From the NCBI RefSeq assembly GCF_000430625.1, contig NZ_KE387171.1, positions 162,240-226,239 of the forward strand: 64,000 nt of DNA, in the 5' to 3' direction. The stretch's first letter is position 1. Each line of letters begins with the position of its first letter. This DNA is from Aneurinibacillus terranovensis DSM 18919 (GTDB lineage: Bacteria > Bacillota > Bacilli > Aneurinibacillales > Aneurinibacillaceae). The notes beneath the pieces were generated by a model. It did not search any database. It saw only the letters and a list, made by a program, of their open reading frames with translations, and was not told the DNA's origin. Of this stretch, positions 19,211 through 32,959 are shown piece by piece. Both the position numbers and the translations under genes were made by a program.

Positions 19211-20653
19211 CTATACGTTTTTGATAGCCTCATCATTAAACTCTTTTGAACTATTGTGAAACAGTTTTGCCAACATGTAATACAACAGGGCCCCAACGAT
19301 GGCGGATGAGGTAAAACTTAAATCTATGCCCCCAACAGCATGTACGAGCGGGCCAGTGTAAACGCTGGTGCCTGTGAACAACAATCCTACAATGACACCA
19401 ATAATCCAAGAAACCATTGCGTAAATGTTAAACCCACCAGAGTACCAATAGCTACTTGACTGCGAACTGATGTGTAGATCTAAAGGCTCATATCGTCCCT
19501 TCACTAAAAAGTGGCCGACAAGATTGATCGCTAACCATGGTGACACGCCAACGATGATAATAATAACGAACGCATCTATAAGGTCTACCATATTGGACAC
19601 ATATACGCCCATAAGCACTAATATAAACCCGATAACGGCCATTATTACTGTGGTCGTAACCCGTTTAAGCGTCCACCCTATCGTTTCGAGAGAAAGCCCG
19701 GCACTGTATAAACACAAGCTTCCGTTTGGCAGACTTCCAAATATCCCGGCAACCATAAGTGGTGCAGCCCACCAGATAGGAGACCCATCGATGATGCCCT
19801 CAACAAAGGGAGTCGATAGATCTTTCACCGTTGACATCATATATGCTGCAGGTACCATAGCTAACCAGCAACCCACAAACATTCCTAGAGACGTCGCCCA
19901 AGTTAGCTTTGTCGAACTATTGTGATTAGGAACATACCTGCTATAATCTCCAATAAACGGTGCATAAGAAATGGGAACGGATGCGGCTGTGATCATGGCG
20001 AGAACCCACGTAGGCCAAAAGCTTTCTAATAGGTATTTGCCCCCTTCATAACTCGCGTTAAAGTGTGAACCAAATATAAACAAAGATAAAATGACAATGG
20101 TTCCAACAAACCAAGTTCCTATTTTTTCAAACAAAACCACCAATTTATGGCCAATGATAGCCACTGTGGCGGTTACTGCGCTGATGATGATGCACCCTAT
20201 CAGTAAAGTGCCGTTTCCTTGTGACCATCCAAACAACCTGTGACCACCCGAAACGAAGGCTTGAGCACCAGTCCAAACCATTAAGCCGTAAAATCCTAAC
20301 GCTATGACGATGTCAAGAATCGATCCGATCACACGACCTTTAACTCCAAAGTGCGCTCCACTAGCGAGCGCTCCATTGGTACCTGTTCTCTGTGACAAAA
20401 TAGCCAATGGCCCAATAACCAATGAACCAATCGCAAGCCCCACGGTTAATGCCCAGAAGGCAGCCCACCATCCAAGCCCAAACACAATGGGCAGCGAACC
20501 GATGGCCATAATTCCATAAGCAAACTGCGAACCGCACAATACATAAAACACATTTGATGCTTTAGAATTCCGCTCATTCTCCGGAATCATATCAACACCC
20601 CGTGTTTCAATCGGGGAATGCTCTTTAAGATAACCCATTTTGTCACTCAACAT
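19211..20653 (-). CDS. NCS1-family permease (nucleobase/pyridine type)
   Basis: Membrane transporter of about 480 residues with roughly 12 hydrophobic segments, from the NCS1 cytosine/purine/allantoin permease family. The acidic N-terminus ENERNSKASNVFYV and SYAPFIGDYSRYVP near the middle are typical of CodB-like proteins. It is the last gene of a catabolic operon with NicX- and NicD-like enzymes, so a nitrogen heterocycle such as a hydroxypyridine or a pyridine carboxylate is the likely cargo. The ATG at 20653 has GGAGGGG directly before it, whereas the ATG at 20665 overlaps that site. The substrate is inference from context. Confidence 0.9.
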   Translation of the reverse strand: MLSDKMGYLKEHSPIETRGVDMIPENERNSKASNVFYVLCGSQFAYGIMAIGSLPIVFGLGWWAAFWALTVGLAIGSLVIGPLAILSQRTGTNGALASGAHFGVKGRVIGSILDIVIALGFYGLMVWTGAQAFVSGGHRLFGWSQGNGTLLIGCIIISAVTATVAIIGHKLVVLFEKIGTWFVGTIVILSLFIFGSHFNASYEGGKYLLESFWPTWVLAMITAASVPISYAPFIGDYSRYVPNHNSSTKLTWATSLGMFVGCWLAMVPAAYMMSTVKDLSTPFVEGIIDGSPIWWAAPLMVAGIFGSLPNGSLCLYSAGLSLETIGWTLKRVTTTVIMAVIGFILVLMGVYVSNMVDLIDAFVIIIIVGVSPWLAINLVGHFLVKGRYEPLDLHISSQSSSYWYSGGFNIYAMVSWIIGVIVGLLFTGTSVYTGPLVHAVGGIDLSFTSSAIVGALLYYMLAKLFHNSSKEFNDEAIKNV

Positions 20654-20736
20654 ATACCCCTCCATTTAATGGTTGTTTTACTTATTTGTAATTCGCGCAA
20701 TCCCTGCATAGAAGTTTCAACACATTTACAATAGGG

Positions 20737-21795
20737 CTATTTTTTACCATGCACTTCGTAATGCTGTGATGTAACGGGTTTCATCTCGTCGATGACAATA
20801 TCTCCGTCTTTAACAATCAACGTGTCGTCGAGATATAATGTACAATTTTTCATAGGTAAATCAAGATGGCAAGGGGTATCGTTGCTTCCTCCTAATTCGG
20901 AATTGGGACCCAACGAGAATAGGACATTTCCATAAAACGCTCGCCCATCCATTCCGAATACCTGATTGTCAAACGCCAAACTATGCCATTGCGCTCGCTC
21001 ATTAAGTCCCCAACCAATATGTGATATCGCATAAGCACGAGGATCTTTAAAGCTGTCCATATATTCCTTCATCAGCATGGCGTCAAATCCACCTTCTATC
21101 TTCGTGACATACCCATTGTTTATCGTTAAATGTATTGGCTCCTGTACATACCGATTAAAGGGGAACAAAATATCTCCTTTATCCATAACGACGATCCCCT
21201 CGACTCCGCCATCGTTGGAAGATGTTGCAGAAAAACAGCTTGGTAAATGGTCCCATTTTCCTGGTTCATCGGCAAAACCATATTCGATAAGGATTGGATA
21301 TTGTCCCAACTGGTATCTGACGTCCGTACCCGACTGATTGGTGAATCTTAGTTCCTTAGCGTTTCTTAACAACTCTGTTGCATAAAGCACCCTTTGCTTA
21401 TCGCTTTCTTTTGGAAACATTCTTTTGATAACATCGAATGGTTCGACTACCATCAATATTCTTACGCCTTCGTTTTGGAGCTCCAACTGTTCTTTTGAAA
21501 ATAAAAGGAGAACTAAGTCAATGACCAGATCTGCCTTTTTCAAGCATTCCACAGCTACTCGATTATCTGTTAAAGGAGTGATACCGAATGAGCCTGTATG
21601 GCCTCTGTTGGCAGATGGTAGTTTCAATTCAAAAGCATTTGCACCAATTTGGGAAGCAGCGTTTAAAAATGCTTTTGCATAATCTGCCCTAATCTCTCCA
21701 GAAGTTAAAACTGCCATAGTTTCTGTCGGCTTTAATTTGCATAACTCAAGTTCATCTTTAAATAAAGCAACCATTTCATCAAACTCAGCGTTCAA
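20737..21795 (-). CDS. nicX: 2,5-dihydroxypyridine 5,6-dioxygenase (NicX-like)
   Basis: Iron(II) ring-cleaving dioxygenase of 352 residues, which turns 2,5-dihydroxypyridine into N-formylmaleamate. The similarity to Pseudomonas putida NicX, recalled from memory, runs end to end: QYPILIEYGFADEPGKWDH, AISHIGWGL..RAQW, MDGRAFYGN and TPCHLDLPMKN. The metal ligands His (about 259), His (about 310) and Asp (about 312) match the two-His-one-Asp site of NicX. With a TTG start at 21795 (AGAGGTG upstream) the length and N-terminus match NicX. A TTG six codons earlier is the alternative. The operon neighbour is a NicD-like deformylase, the next step in the pathway. Confidence 0.9.
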   Translation of the reverse strand: MNAEFDEMVALFKDELELCKLKPTETMAVLTSGEIRADYAKAFLNAASQIGANAFELKLPSANRGHTGSFGITPLTDNRVAVECLKKADLVIDLVLLLFSKEQLELQNEGVRILMVVEPFDVIKRMFPKESDKQRVLYATELLRNAKELRFTNQSGTDVRYQLGQYPILIEYGFADEPGKWDHLPSCFSATSSNDGGVEGIVVMDKGDILFPFNRYVQEPIHLTINNGYVTKIEGGFDAMLMKEYMDSFKDPRAYAISHIGWGLNERAQWHSLAFDNQVFGMDGRAFYGNVLFSLGPNSELGGSNDTPCHLDLPMKNCTLYLDDTLIVKDGDIVIDEMKPVTSQHYEVHGKK

Positions 21796-21823
21796 TATAC
21801 ACACCTCTTTCAATTTGATAGAT

Positions 21824-22645
21824 TTATTGATTTATAGTTTTTTCAATAAAAGAAACAATAAAATTAGCAGTTTGTTCAGGATCATCCTTATATACCATGT
21901 GTCCCACACCTTTGATCCTTTCCACCTTCATTTGGGGATTGAGCCTCTTTAACACCTCTAATTCATTATCACGAATCGTATCTCCAAACTCGGCAGCCAA
22001 AAGCAATGCAGGCGCAGAAAGCATTCTTATGAACACTTGGAAAGGCTCCCTTAAGAGTGATTCATATGATTGAATGATGGCTTGTAAACTATTATTTCGA
22101 TATTCTTCAGCTCTTTCGGCCACTTGTTCTTCCGTGAAAGAAGGAAAAAAACTCCGGAATAATTCCATATCACCCTGGTCAACAGCCTCCTTTTGTTTTA
22201 TAAACATAGACAACGGGTTTGGGTATATCTCTCTTTGTCCTGGGCCATTAATTGGAGGGTCAATTAATACCATACCGGAGATTAGAGATGAATAGCGACT
22301 ACCGAAAGCGGCGGCAATTCTGGCTCCCATGGAATGACCCACCAAAACCGGCGGAACTGGATTATCTACTAATGCGTTAACTACATTCAGCAAGTCCTCT
22401 GTATAGTCTTTTAACAAGTAACCTTCTTTAGGCGAATCGGACAGCCCCCTGCCCCTTATATCCATTGACAGCGAATAATACTTTTCCGGCATAAGATTTA
22501 GGACTTTTATAAATGAATAGCTGTAACTCGTGATGCCATGCAAGAAGATAACCGGAATGCCGCTTTCATTCCCTTTGGTAATAAGATGAATTTTGGCGTT
22601 TACACCCTTCACGAATAAGTGTTCAAAATATTCAATTTTATTCAC
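21824..22645 (-). CDS. nicD: N-formylmaleamate deformylase-like alpha/beta hydrolase (NicD-like)
   Basis: Alpha/beta hydrolase of 273 residues. The nucleophile Ser is at 105 (VGHSMGAR), the oxyanion region is LHGIT, the acid is in the stretch AAEFGDT and the base is His 249 (GVGHMVY). DIRGRGLSDS and the stretch VLIDPPINGPGQRE closely recall P. putida NicD (DVRGRGLSSS, LVDPPVSGPGRR). NicD hydrolyses N-formylmaleamate to maleamate and formate. The gene starts with GTG after GGAGG and lies 28 bases before the nicX-like start, so they are cotranscribed. A related esterase role cannot be excluded from sequence alone, but the context is strong. Confidence 0.85.
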   Translation of the reverse strand: MNKIEYFEHLFVKGVNAKIHLITKGNESGIPVIFLHGITSYSYSFIKVLNLMPEKYYSLSMDIRGRGLSDSPKEGYLLKDYTEDLLNVVNALVDNPVPPVLVGHSMGARIAAAFGSRYSSLISGMVLIDPPINGPGQREIYPNPLSMFIKQKEAVDQGDMELFRSFFPSFTEEQVAERAEEYRNNSLQAIIQSYESLLREPFQVFIRMLSAPALLLAAEFGDTIRDNELEVLKRLNPQMKVERIKGVGHMVYKDDPEQTANFIVSFIEKTINQ

Positions 22646-22741: not shown

Positions 22742-24250
22742 TTATGCCAGAGGAAGTCCAATCGATTTACGGATTTGGTTCATGAAAGGCGTTCTATCAT
22801 ATTCGTGATAGAGGCGCTCACGAAGCAGCGGTGCGGGCAACGCGTTCACGTTTTCGAACAGACCTACACGACCTGCATGGGAATCGGTCGTAATATCCCA
22901 AATAAAGTTCATTAACAGGTTCTTCTGCTTGGATGTTAATCCGCGACCAAATAACAGTTCCTCTAATTTTCCACCAATATACGGATGTTCATAATCTTTT
23001 TCCGAGAACCTCATGACCAGCCCCTGTCCACACAGCTCCTGGAGGTGATGAATCATTTGCGGATAATGTACAATTCCATAGAGTCGCCCTGCTGTAAGCA
23101 TATTGACATCCGGCCACATGACTCCATCTTCGGTCAGTTTAGCTAATTCCTCAGAAGCTAGCACATACGCTCTCAGCGTTTGAGCATACTGGATGACTTC
23201 CGATACGATGGAACGCACTCCTGGGATTTTTCCTGTTCCCAGCGCCTCGACAATGAGTTGGGCAGCCCCCACATACATTTCAGCCTTGGTAGCCAAACGC
23301 GAAAGAACGTGCCAATGCACCCCTAATACTACACTGCCATATAACTCATTGAGTTCCGGAACCCCGTAGTTAAAAATTCTCCATTTTTCCACAAAAACGT
23401 TATCAAAAATCAAGAAGGAATCCATTTCTTCCCCGCGTGATTTTACCGGGTGATCGTAGGAACTGGCAGAATCCACAGATACCGTTTCGCGGCATACAAT
23501 ATGGACGCCCGGCGCATTGATGGGAACAGCTAACCACAAAGATTCTTCCGGTAACAGACCGGGGCGCATCAAGTTAGAGAGTATCATTTCATTTCCTTGG
23601 GAAGAAACAGAACCCACCGCCTTCGCTCCGCTAATATAAATCCCTTCTTCCGTTTCTTTCACCACCCTCAACAGGGCTGGCGTTGAGTCTCCCCCTTTCA
23701 TTTTGCTCCCTAATTCCACATCGAACAAACGAGCACCCGCTGCGGCGGCTTTGGAGCGGTCATTTTGAGGATCTACCAACACCTCCGGTCCCATCAGATT
23801 GTTTTTTTGCGCATAGTCGATATAGTGAAGAACATTCTCCGCATATTCCGGCCTTTTTTTGCGGAACTGGGAGAGGTACGCGGCCATCCCTACAGGCACA
23901 AGGGGAGCAAGATCAAATGGGCGGCCAAACACTCCAAAAGTTTCCTGAGCGACGTAATCGATGAGTTCCCGGCGGCTTTTAAGATCTTCTTTCGTCCTTG
24001 GAATCATCCAGGCTTTACTTACACGTTCACCTAACTCCGGGTTCAGATACGTAAGTCTATCCTGCATTTCCGGATCATGCTGGGCATCAAAAATTTTAGC
24101 CATGATATTGATGCCACCGCTGGTAGCCGGGTGAGCTGTCACATCCGGAATGAGTTCACCCTTGTAATACACAGCACGACCATCACGAAGGCTTTCTTTG
24201 TACATCTCACCTGTTTTCAAATATTTCGATAATACCTGGGTCTTTTCCAT
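22742..24250 (-). CDS. HpaB-family flavin-dependent monooxygenase
   Basis: Protein of 502 residues from the 4-hydroxyphenylacetate 3-hydroxylase (HpaB) large-component family, with the acyl-CoA dehydrogenase fold. It uses reduced FAD supplied by a separate reductase. Recognisable parts include HPATSGGINIMAKIFDAQHD (about 55), IYISGAKAVGS, the flavin-site stretch LAVPINAPGVHI, SRGEEMDSFLIFDNVFV and the C-terminal MRFSEKDYEHPYIGGKLEE. AAAGGAGGAGA precedes the ATG at 24250; the frame open to 24307 is not needed. It heads an operon with nicX- and nicD-like genes, so it probably hydroxylates a pyridine ring to give 2,5-dihydroxypyridine. In P. putida a different monooxygenase type (NicC) does this. 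No reductase gene is visible nearby. Confidence 0.88.
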   Translation of the reverse strand: MEKTQVLSKYLKTGEMYKESLRDGRAVYYKGELIPDVTAHPATSGGINIMAKIFDAQHDPEMQDRLTYLNPELGERVSKAWMIPRTKEDLKSRRELIDYVAQETFGVFGRPFDLAPLVPVGMAAYLSQFRKKRPEYAENVLHYIDYAQKNNLMGPEVLVDPQNDRSKAAAAGARLFDVELGSKMKGGDSTPALLRVVKETEEGIYISGAKAVGSVSSQGNEMILSNLMRPGLLPEESLWLAVPINAPGVHIVCRETVSVDSASSYDHPVKSRGEEMDSFLIFDNVFVEKWRIFNYGVPELNELYGSVVLGVHWHVLSRLATKAEMYVGAAQLIVEALGTGKIPGVRSIVSEVIQYAQTLRAYVLASEELAKLTEDGVMWPDVNMLTAGRLYGIVHYPQMIHHLQELCGQGLVMRFSEKDYEHPYIGGKLEELLFGRGLTSKQKNLLMNFIWDITTDSHAGRVGLFENVNALPAPLLRERLYHEYDRTPFMNQIRKSIGLPLA

Positions 24251-24316
24251 TCTTTCTCCTCCTTTAATACGATAGAAAATTCTTTCCATAAGCAAAGAGT
24301 AAAACATTAAAACTTC

Positions 24317-24352
24317 ACCAAATCCACCAAATCAACCAAACTTACCAAACCT
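24317..24352 (-). repeat. Four 9-bp tandem repeats in the leader of the catabolic operon
   Basis: On the minus strand TTTGGT recurs every 9 bases four times (plus-strand ACCAAA at 24317, 24326, 24335 and 24344). They lie downstream of the predicted promoter (24364-24392) and 65-100 bases before the start codon. They would therefore be transcribed. They could bind a regulator as DNA or as RNA. Confidence 0.7.
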
Positions 24353-24363
24353 TCCATGACCTT

Positions 24364-24392
24364 ATTCTATCTTGTGCCTTTTATTTTGTCAA
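24364..24392 (-). promoter_or_regulatory. SigmaA promoter of the catabolic operon
   Basis: On the minus strand TTGACA (24392-24387), 17 bp and TAGAAT (24369-24364). This is close to consensus and places the start of transcription just before the TTTGGT repeats. Confidence 0.75.
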
Positions 24393-24431
24393 TATAGAAC
24401 GTTTTAAATTTGCTGAATAATTTAAAAAGAA

Positions 24432-24468
24432 GAAAACCGTGATTATCTTAACGATAATTCACGGTTTC
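24432..24468 (-). terminator. Terminator of the regulator gene
   Basis: AAACCGTG and CACGGTTT arms, with TTATC/GATAA inside, are followed on the minus strand by TCTTCTTTTT. It separates the regulator from the catabolic operon. Confidence 0.8.
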
Positions 24469-24476
24469 TTATACGC

Positions 24477-25262
24477 TTAATCCAGCTGCTCTATCGGCGG
24501 TTTCATGCCTTTTAATACCTTCTCCAGATTCATTACATCTGCGTATCTCGCGTTTAGGTCTATTAATGTCGAGTTCTGCAAGGTTTGATTACGATCTCCT
24601 ACAGCTTCTTTAGGAATGATTACTCTGTAACCCCTTTGGAGGGCATCTACCGCGGTCGCTCTTATACTTCCACTGGTTGTAGCACCAGCCAATATTACAG
24701 TATCTATCTGGCGTTTTTTCAGAAAATCATCTACTTCACGATTATATACGTCAGTGATATGTACTGTAGGATTAATCATATCGTAAGAATGATCACTAAG
24801 GGCTGGATGAATGTTGACCCACGTACTTTGACGATCTAAAATTTGAAGTGATGGGAATTTTTGGCACCATAACCTAGATACCTCATTAGTTGAGTCGTAT
24901 ATTGTTATACTAAAGATAATCGGTATGTTATGTGAAACTGCTTCTTCTATAAGTTGTTTTGTTGCAGAAATTTGATTTTCAATCTTAATGGATAATTGAG
25001 AATGTGGTTCAGTAAAAGCTATCGTTAAATCACGAATGAGAAGCGCCGGTTTTTTACCAAACCCAATTTGTCCCGAAAATCCTTGTTCAGAGTAAAGTTG
25101 TTGTAACTCATCTAGAATATATCTTCTTTGTCCTCCAGGAGTATATAAAACCTTTAAACCATAGCCTTCAATCATTCCATTCTTCTCTAACCGGCGCAAT
25201 GTACTGGGTGAAACTCCCAGTCGCTTTGCAGCTTCAGATATATTTAAAAGATTCTCATACAT
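24477..25262 (-). CDS. MerR-type HTH fused to an inactive isochorismatase/maleamate-amidase-like domain
   Basis: Fusion protein of about 261 residues. Residues 6-54 form a MerR/excisionase-like helix-turn-helix (ISEAAKRLGVSPSTLRRLEKNG then TPGGQRRY). Residues 67 to the end form an isochorismatase-family hydrolase of the N-carbamoylsarcosine amidase/NicF kind (KKPALLIRDLTIAFTEP; AGATTSGSIRATAVDALQRG). The catalytic Asp (about 78) remains. The nucleophile Cys of TTSGC is Ser (about 199), and the usual Lys position appears to be Pro (about 165), so the domain is probably not an amidase. It lies upstream of the nicX/nicD operon with its own terminator. I infer a regulator that senses a maleamate-like intermediate. 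The ATG at 25262 has AGAGG upstream. Confidence 0.85.
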   Translation of the reverse strand: MYENLLNISEAAKRLGVSPSTLRRLEKNGMIEGYGLKVLYTPGGQRRYILDELQQLYSEQGFSGQIGFGKKPALLIRDLTIAFTEPHSQLSIKIENQISATKQLIEEAVSHNIPIIFSITIYDSTNEVSRLWCQKFPSLQILDRQSTWVNIHPALSDHSYDMINPTVHITDVYNREVDDFLKKRQIDTVILAGATTSGSIRATAVDALQRGYRVIIPKEAVGDRNQTLQNSTLIDLNARYADVMNLEKVLKGMKPPIEQLD

Positions 25263-31829: not shown

Positions 31830-32375
31830 CTATTCCTTCACCGCACCTGCAGTAACACCGGAGACAATACTTCGTTGAAAAAACAGTACGAGAATGATAA
31901 TCGGAACCGTTACAATAATGGCGGCAGCTGATATTTCGCCCCACGGCATCGTATACTGCCCCTGGAACAATGCAATCCCAACCGGCACAGTTTTCATGCT
32001 TTCTTTCGTGTTAATCGTGAGTGCGAATAAGAATTCATTCCACGCAGCGATAAAGACAAGAATGGCGGTCGTAAACGTTCCCGGCAGGGCAAGCGGAAGA
32101 ATGACTCTGCCGAATGTCTGAAGAATAGAGGCCCCATCCATCTTGGCTGCTTCCTCCATATCGTAAGGAATCTGCCGAAAAAACGTCGTCAAGTTCCAAA
32201 TCGCCAGCGGCAGGGCAAATGTTGTGTAAGGAATAATTAACCCTAAATAACTATTCGTTAACCCAATGGACTGCAAAAACATGAAAATAGGCGAAATCGT
32301 CGCGATTTGCGGAAACATTGAGACCGCAAGCACAAGCCCAAGAATAACGAAACGACGAATAATGTGCAAGGCCAA
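31830..32375 (-). pseudogene. ABC sugar permease, C-terminal remnant (MalG-like)
   Basis: The 181-codon frame keeps the C-terminal four membrane segments of a MalG-type permease. The EAA loop EEAAKMDGASILQTFGRVILP and the tail FFQRSIVSGVTAGAVKE are intact. The usual first 90 or so residues, with two membrane segments, are missing. Its 5' end is joined, in a different frame, to the start of another permease gene. A deletion that removed the end of one gene and the start of the next is the simplest cause. Confidence 0.85.
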
Positions 32376-32943
32376 TGAAGTTGGGATTGATTAAAGAAAC
32401 TTCTAATCCGTGAAGCAGGCCAAGGAGTTCGTGTTGATTTTTCAAACTATGCTTGCCGGATATGTTAACAAGGCTGAACTCAAGGTTCTTTATTTCACTT
32501 TTGATTTGCCCGGCTTTGACTGCGCTAATCTCCGCATATTTTACATTGTCCGGAATGACCTGGTATTCGCTCAGCATTTTTTCAACCAGCGGATACCGTG
32601 CAGCCACCTGGCTTTCGCTGTTTATTTCGTTTTTAAGCTTCTCTGCCTTTTGTTGAACAGTCTGCAGTTCCTGCCGCACCCCGGGATTTGCACTTTCTCT
32701 TTCCTTCTGTAAATCATTAAGTACGTATGGAATCGTATCTACATATTGCTCCATATCAATCCCGTAGGAACGATGAATGGCTGCTTTTGCCGGGTCGTTT
32801 AACCGGATATCATACAAGCTAATCCAAAAAGAACGAACAACCGGCCAGATTGCGATTACTAAAATAATGATAAGGGCCGGCAGAACAAATAAGTATCCCA
32901 TCTGTTTTTCGGTCAGGCTGCTTCCTGAGTTCTTTTTCACCAT
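32366..32943 (-). pseudogene. ABC sugar permease, N-terminal remnant (MalF-like)
   Basis: Starts normally with ATG after a GGGTGA site. It has TM1 (YLFVLPALIIILVIAIWPVV) and an extended helical extracellular insert of about 140 residues (Lys/Glu-rich, coiled-coil-like), ending at NPNFIGLAHY. This is the usual stretch before TM2. From there the frame runs out of phase into the other permease gene, giving about 30 nonsense residues to 32251. The EAA loop and most membrane segments are gone, so the transporter cannot work. Confidence 0.85.
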
Positions 32944-32959
32944 GTTCACCCGCTTTCCA

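Follow-up and report, generated by a model that had tools for sequence, protein, structure and literature searches.

A candidate ligand-relieved repressor with a degenerate maleamate-amidase domain beside a 2,5-dihydroxypyridine operon in Bacilli

The window analysed here, a 64,000-nucleotide stretch of contig NZ_KE387171.1 of Aneurinibacillus terranovensis DSM 18919, carries a gene in which a MerR/BldC-like winged helix-turn-helix (HTH) is fused to an isochorismatase-type amidase domain that has lost its catalytic Lys and Cys. Judging from sequence, we think it reasonably probable that the product is a one-component repressor of the adjacent 2,5-dihydroxypyridine operon, relieved by ligand, whose dead amidase pocket would sense a compound of the pathway.

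Results

Domain structure of the fusion protein

24477 to 25262, minus strand: HTH-pseudoamidase fusion gene of 261 amino acids (coding 25262-24480, stop TAA 24479-24477)
25089 to 25262, minus strand: MerR/BldC-like winged HTH, residues 1-58 (Pfam MerR 7-48, HTH_17 5-58, AlphaFold2 model)
24507 to 25079, minus strand: isochorismatase domain of the NicF/N-carbamoylsarcosine-amidase type, very probably inactive, about residues 62-252

The gene starts at an ATG preceded by GAGG. The architecture given in the initial annotation, a MerR-type HTH joined to a domain of the isochorismatase/NicF family, is borne out by Pfam matches above their cut-offs in both halves: MerR (PF00376) on residues 7-48 (E = 2e-8; 34.2 bits versus a cut-off of 28.2) and Isochorismatase (PF00857) on residues 73-247 (E = 5e-24; above the gathering score). 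An AlphaFold2 model based on 13 homologues (mean pLDDT 83, pTM 0.71; confidence low near the domain junction) has NicF (3OT4/3UAO) as its top Foldseek matches, with a TM score of 0.90 on the target. By sequence, the closest PDB entries are N-carbamoylsarcosine amidohydrolases (26ST, 1NBA), the maleamate amidase Ami (4L07/4L08) and NicF (3OT4/3UAO).

In this model the HTH comprises helices at residues 8-15 and 19-27 and a hairpin at 36-50, with SPSTLRRLEK as the recognition helix and TPGGQRRY as the wing. The coiled-coil dimerization helix after the HTH is absent from the model, in which just a helix at 52-60 precedes the amidase fold. In Streptomyces, the MerR-like protein BldC lacks a coiled-coil dimer domain and occupies 9-bp direct repeats head to tail (PMC5859096). 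The fusion resembles it in having a short winged HTH of this kind with no dimer helix, and repeats of that length make up its candidate site (see below). However, BldC has no effector domain, and the HTH of the fusion scores 20.6 bits against the HTH_BldC family, below the cut-off of 77; this match is sub-threshold in 12 of 13 fusion members.

Loss of catalytic residues in the amidase domain

24765 to 24767, minus strand: codon for Thr166, at the catalytic Lys position (Lys144 of N-carbamoylsarcosine amidase), from alignment with 1NBA, 3OT4, 4L07 and 26ST
24666 to 24668, minus strand: codon for Ser199, at the position of the nucleophilic Cys in the same-position alignment with PDB amidases; motif TTSGS

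Alignment with structures of NicF and N-carbamoylsarcosine amidase, the check proposed in the initial annotation, places the catalytic Asp at D78 of the fusion (1NBA, 3OT4, 4L07, 26ST) and finds both Lys and Cys lost. The Ser previously noted in place of the nucleophile is Ser199, within TTSGS. Loss of the Lys was also called correctly, but the residue aligned there is Thr166 and not the Pro that had been named, Pro165 being its neighbour. Across the 13 full-length fusions aligned, the Lys position is invariably Thr or Ser, whereas at the Cys position the 11 close members have Ser, L042 has Ala and L041 retains Cys, so that the expectation of a missing Cys in every fusion holds for 12 of the 13. 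The complete Asp-Lys-Cys triad is present in four PDB amidases and in 33/33 stand-alone relatives from Bacillota, a count that leaves out the L032 row, in which the neighbouring fusion had been picked up twice. The Lys is required in the catalytic mechanism of the NicF/N-carbamoylsarcosine-amidase family, and its loss in all 13 fusions, together with that of the Cys in 12, makes it very probable that the domain is catalytically dead. With Cys kept and Lys lost, L041 is possibly an intermediate state between enzyme and sensor.

Fold, whole-domain sequence similarity and the catalytic Asp are thus common to the fusion and to NicF (3OT4, 3UAO), Ami (4L07) and N-carbamoylsarcosine amidohydrolase (1NBA, 26ST); the fusion differs in Lys-to-Thr, Cys-to-Ser, an added N-terminal DNA-binding domain and a replaced ASAFFGT loop. 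The NicF sequence KKYASAFFGT is swapped in close fusions for a different conserved one (T-V/P-H/Y-I/V-T/S/N).

Conservation and origin of the fusion family

Full-length fusions are found at at least 12 other loci in Bacilli, at 33-91% identity: in Aneurinibacillus, Bacillus, Neobacillus and a Peribacillus plasmid, with more distant ones in other Bacilli. The Peribacillus protein is named in RefSeq just as 'isochorismatase family protein'. Outside the Bacilli, a search of 399 Bacillota genomes, plasmids, viral contigs and candidates in Salipiger, Rubrobacter and Acidiphilium yielded domain-only or HTH-only matches. The identity range, together with a dN/dS of about 0.05-0.14, excludes a chance open frame. 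For the amidase domain by itself dN/dS is 0.05-0.12, versus 0.13 for active NicF; strong purifying selection on a dead domain, similar to that on the live enzyme, argues that the domain is retained for a function. The fusions form one clade (support 95/90), and by this phylogeny the family has one origin. We rejected a recent duplication of nicF from the operon itself as its source, with long branches between the clades and a sister relation that is unsupported (14/0).

Several irregular copies were seen. The fusion gene of Neobacillus sp. PS3-12 (L009:7001-7766) is frameshifted between the HTH and the amidase domain, by decay or sequencing error. An HTH-only copy of 97 amino acids (L045:8155-8448, genome G002) and a partial amidase domain (L031, genome G286) are perhaps remnants of second fusion copies. 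Near each of the distant fusions L041:9075-9851 and L042:9345-10076, which adjoin other pathways, an active amidase from the same superfamily is encoded; these fusions may control other amide pathways.

The operon and its collapsed hpaB repeat

22742 to 24250, minus strand: HpaB-type two-component flavin monooxygenase (Pfam HpaB_N/HpaB); apparently a collapsed repeat standing for hpaB1 and hpaB2
21824 to 22645, minus strand: NicD-like N-formylmaleamate deformylase (best PDB match 4L0C, a deformylase, E = 8e-26)
20737 to 21813, minus strand: NicX-like 2,5-dihydroxypyridine dioxygenase (sole PDB match 7CN3, 2,5-dihydroxypyridine 5,6-dioxygenase, E = 1e-94)
19211 to 20665, minus strand: NCS1-family permease, probable substrate importer (Pfam Transp_cyt_pur, E = 8e-50)

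The gene order in the window is fusion, hpaB, nicD, nicX and NCS1 permease, and the PDB matches of the third and fourth genes agree with the NicD- and NicX-like enzymes expected beside the fusion. The HpaB protein is nearest, among PDB matches, to 4-hydroxyphenylacetate, nitrophenol and chlorophenol monooxygenases. A 3.7-kb contig of the same genome (C82; locus L044) carries nicE, a small gene, a flavin reductase gene, an intact nicF and an FAD synthetase gene (ribF), and its ends are identical, over 95 nt each, to window positions 24237-24331 and 22742-22836. The best PDB match of the maleate isomerase (nicE) is 4FQ7 (2e-90), and those of the operon's NicF are N-carbamoylsarcosine and maleamate amidases (6e-60). 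On the simplest reading, two near-identical hpaB copies were merged in the assembly, which would explain why the window lacks nicE, the flavin reductase gene, nicF and ribF; the true order would then be fusion, hpaB1, nicE, small gene, flavin reductase, nicF, ribF, a second promoter, hpaB2, nicD, nicX and permease. This order, minus the small gene and the permease, can be read directly in the Peribacillus frigoritolerans plasmid NZ_OY970401 and is partly present in L006 and L009.

FAD synthetase-like genes accompany the HpaB-type pyridine operon at L004:11999-12841, L006:11744-12493 and L046:19763-20641 as well as on C82, and probably supply the two-component monooxygenases. Elsewhere in the window, the sugar-transporter permease frames at 31830-32949 seem disrupted or fused: a short MalF-like frame continues into a MalG-like frame that is truncated.

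Linkage to the lower pathway

Most close fusions adjoin genes of the nicX/nicD/nicF/nicE set, with nicX, nicF or both next to them, and with upper pathways of either the hpaB or the nicC type; in Neobacillus niacini (L008) and at L036, L037, L038 and L039, the fusion lies near nicF, nicX and a nicC-type monooxygenase gene, without hpaB. Co-occurrence with nicX, as anticipated in the initial annotation, was tested in 400 Bacilli genomes: a close fusion is present in nine, a NicX match in seven and both in six (hypergeometric p = 1e-10, which is optimistic, some of the genomes sharing ancestry). The single NicX-positive genome without a fusion, G010, has only a 41% NicX match. Fusions without adjoining nic genes occur in G002 (L043), where the contig is short, and in G308 (L040), where the copy has no start. 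At L005 (genome G009) only nicF is left beside the fusion, with the same operator as described below, and a NicX match is absent from the genome. Since the fusion occurs with nicC-type loci without hpaB as well as with hpaB loci, the regulator, on this gene-neighbourhood evidence, is one that tracks the lower pathway from 2,5-dihydroxypyridine to fumarate, and not one starting substrate.

This distribution bears on the nature of the ligand. We hold it possible, without favouring it, that the regulator responds to the pathway's first substrate, pyridine or a nicotinate-like compound, or to 2,5-dihydroxypyridine, and not to a lower-pathway amide. NicR and BpsR, MarR-family proteins unrelated to the fusion that serve proteobacterial nicotinate pathways with the same pathway genes, are reported to respond to the early intermediate 6-hydroxynicotinate (PMC6837509), and the catalytic loop of the fusion's pocket is remodelled. 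On the other hand, two unrelated upper pathways (hpaB, nicC) occur with the regulator, the lower pathway alone being common to them, and the L005 fusion precedes only nicF. This last locus, which keeps nicF and the operator with no NicX match in its genome, weakly favours an amide-type ligand such as maleamate. With the loop after the Lys replaced, the pocket may hold something other than the NicF substrate, and since the distant L041 and L042 fusions adjoin other pathways, not every family member has to bind maleamate.

Promoter and direct repeats ahead of hpaB

24424 to 24470, minus strand: stem-loop with T-run separating the fusion gene from the operon, a probable fusion-gene terminator (RNA fold -17.6 kcal/mol, z = -4.9)
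24364 to 24392, minus strand: predicted hpaB operon promoter, TTGACA-17-TAGAAT (11 of 12 consensus bases; predicted start about 24357)
24313 to 24349, minus strand: candidate operator of four 9-10-bp direct repeats, TTTGGTAAG TTTGGTTGA TTTGGTGGA TTTGGTGAAG, at about +9 to +45

The hairpin was missed by a simple terminator scan; comparable ones are present in L004, L006, L007, L008, L009 and L046. The promoter and the repeats, which follow a 9-bp TTTGGTnnn pattern, are kept ahead of hpaB in five related genomes, ahead of hpaB2 in three and in C82, and ahead of nicF at L005 and L008, and are absent upstream of the fusion gene itself. At an offset of 9 the repeats match themselves at 0.74-0.77 in the window; the corresponding z-scores are 8.4 over 13 promoters, 4.8 for the window alone and 3.4 for the divergent L036, although the 13 promoters are related sequences and scores from shuffling overstate their independence. 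The repeats are plainly visible in the window, L036 and L007, and weak or absent in L038 and L039. A genome-wide operator scan allowing up to two mismatches returned 9 sites versus 26 in a reversed control, which leaves the two that adjoin nic genes as the only meaningful ones.

The geometry of this region also bears on the mode of control. The HTH exceeds the Pfam MerR cut-off and most MerR proteins are activators, which would suit a classical MerR activator, always bound at its promoter and twisting a long spacer in response to ligand. We nevertheless consider this unlikely, having rejected it as the leading explanation because of the spacer length and the geometry of the site: spacers across related loci are of normal length, 17 bp (18 in L037), and not 19-20 bp, and the conserved element consists of direct repeats downstream of the -10 and not of a palindrome within the spacer. 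With classical MerR regulators the fusion thus has the HTH family in common, and it lacks their dimerization coiled coil, palindrome and 19-20-bp spacer, as far as the predicted site allows this comparison.

A short frame (MEGLVSLVDLVDLVKF; window 24357-24308, minus strand) begins with an ATG at the predicted transcription start and has counterparts at the matching promoters of L004-L009, L046 and C82. Such an ATG lies 5-7 bases past the -10 in 11 of 12 promoters, L007 being the exception, and opens frames such as MEALVSLVDL; it may mark either a leaderless leader peptide or a by-product of the repeats. That the repeats belong to such a peptide, which would control the operon while the fusion acts elsewhere, is very improbable in spite of the constant position of the ATG: L007 has the repeats without it, and L036 and L037 retain related repeats at other spacing. 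RNA-based control of the operon was likewise rejected, an Rfam search giving no match.

Discussion

A proposed mechanism

The reading in the initial annotation, in which a dead maleamate-amidase domain binds a pathway intermediate and controls the operon, is partly borne out. Sites placed immediately after a consensus promoter are compatible with a repressor that is released by ligand. We infer that the MerR/BldC-like HTH sits on the 9-bp direct repeats and blocks transcription from the strong 17-bp-spacer promoter, and that the maleamate-amidase fold, without catalytic Lys and Cys, would hold a lower-pathway compound that it cannot hydrolyse, most likely maleamate or a closely related compound (N-formylmaleamate, maleate). 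Binding would alter the arrangement of subunits and release the protein from the repeats, allowing expression of hpaB-nicE-flavin reductase-nicF-ribF and of hpaB2-nicD-nicX-permease; active NicF, itself a product of the operon, would then clear the inducer and reset the switch. Residual catalysis through a Ser nucleophile, which would make the protein a bifunctional enzyme-regulator, is scarcely credible even though Ser can act as a nucleophile, Asp is retained and L041 keeps its Cys, as every member has Thr or Ser in place of the mechanism-essential Lys and the same operon encodes an intact NicF.

A further proposal is held tentatively, at somewhat short of even confidence: that the fusions are a new regulator family, in which a dead isochorismatase/maleamate-amidase sensor is combined with a BldC-like HTH on tandem 9-bp direct repeats, possibly as a cooperative multimer that forms on the DNA and is disassembled by the substrate of the active amidase next to it.

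Relation to known regulators and implications

The initial annotation knew of no described regulator of this build for pyridine breakdown, and a search of the open-access literature found no HTH-isochorismatase regulator. The underlying idea of a dead enzyme as sensor, however, has precedents. BzdR joins an HTH to a shikimate-kinase-like domain with benzoyl-CoA as ligand (PMC3602430); its HTH and its sensor fold are both different, an enzyme-derived sensor being what the two concepts share. Regulators of the NrtR/AraR type (Nudix) and the MocR/GabR type (aminotransferase) reuse metabolic enzyme folds unrelated to that of the fusion (PMC4666351, PMC8739950). What is added here seems to be a regulator family whose sensor domain is new to the literature and whose candidate operator can be tested, the enzyme-to-sensor concept being already known.

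If the proposal is correct, the isochorismatase fold would join the enzyme folds that have been turned into gene switches, in a clean case of enzyme-to-sensor conversion with a dead sensor and a live enzyme of the same superfamily in one cluster. The protein could then also serve in a biosensor for maleamate or the pyridine pathway, and Bacilli would have a candidate regulator for the breakdown of 2,5-dihydroxypyridine and nicotinate.
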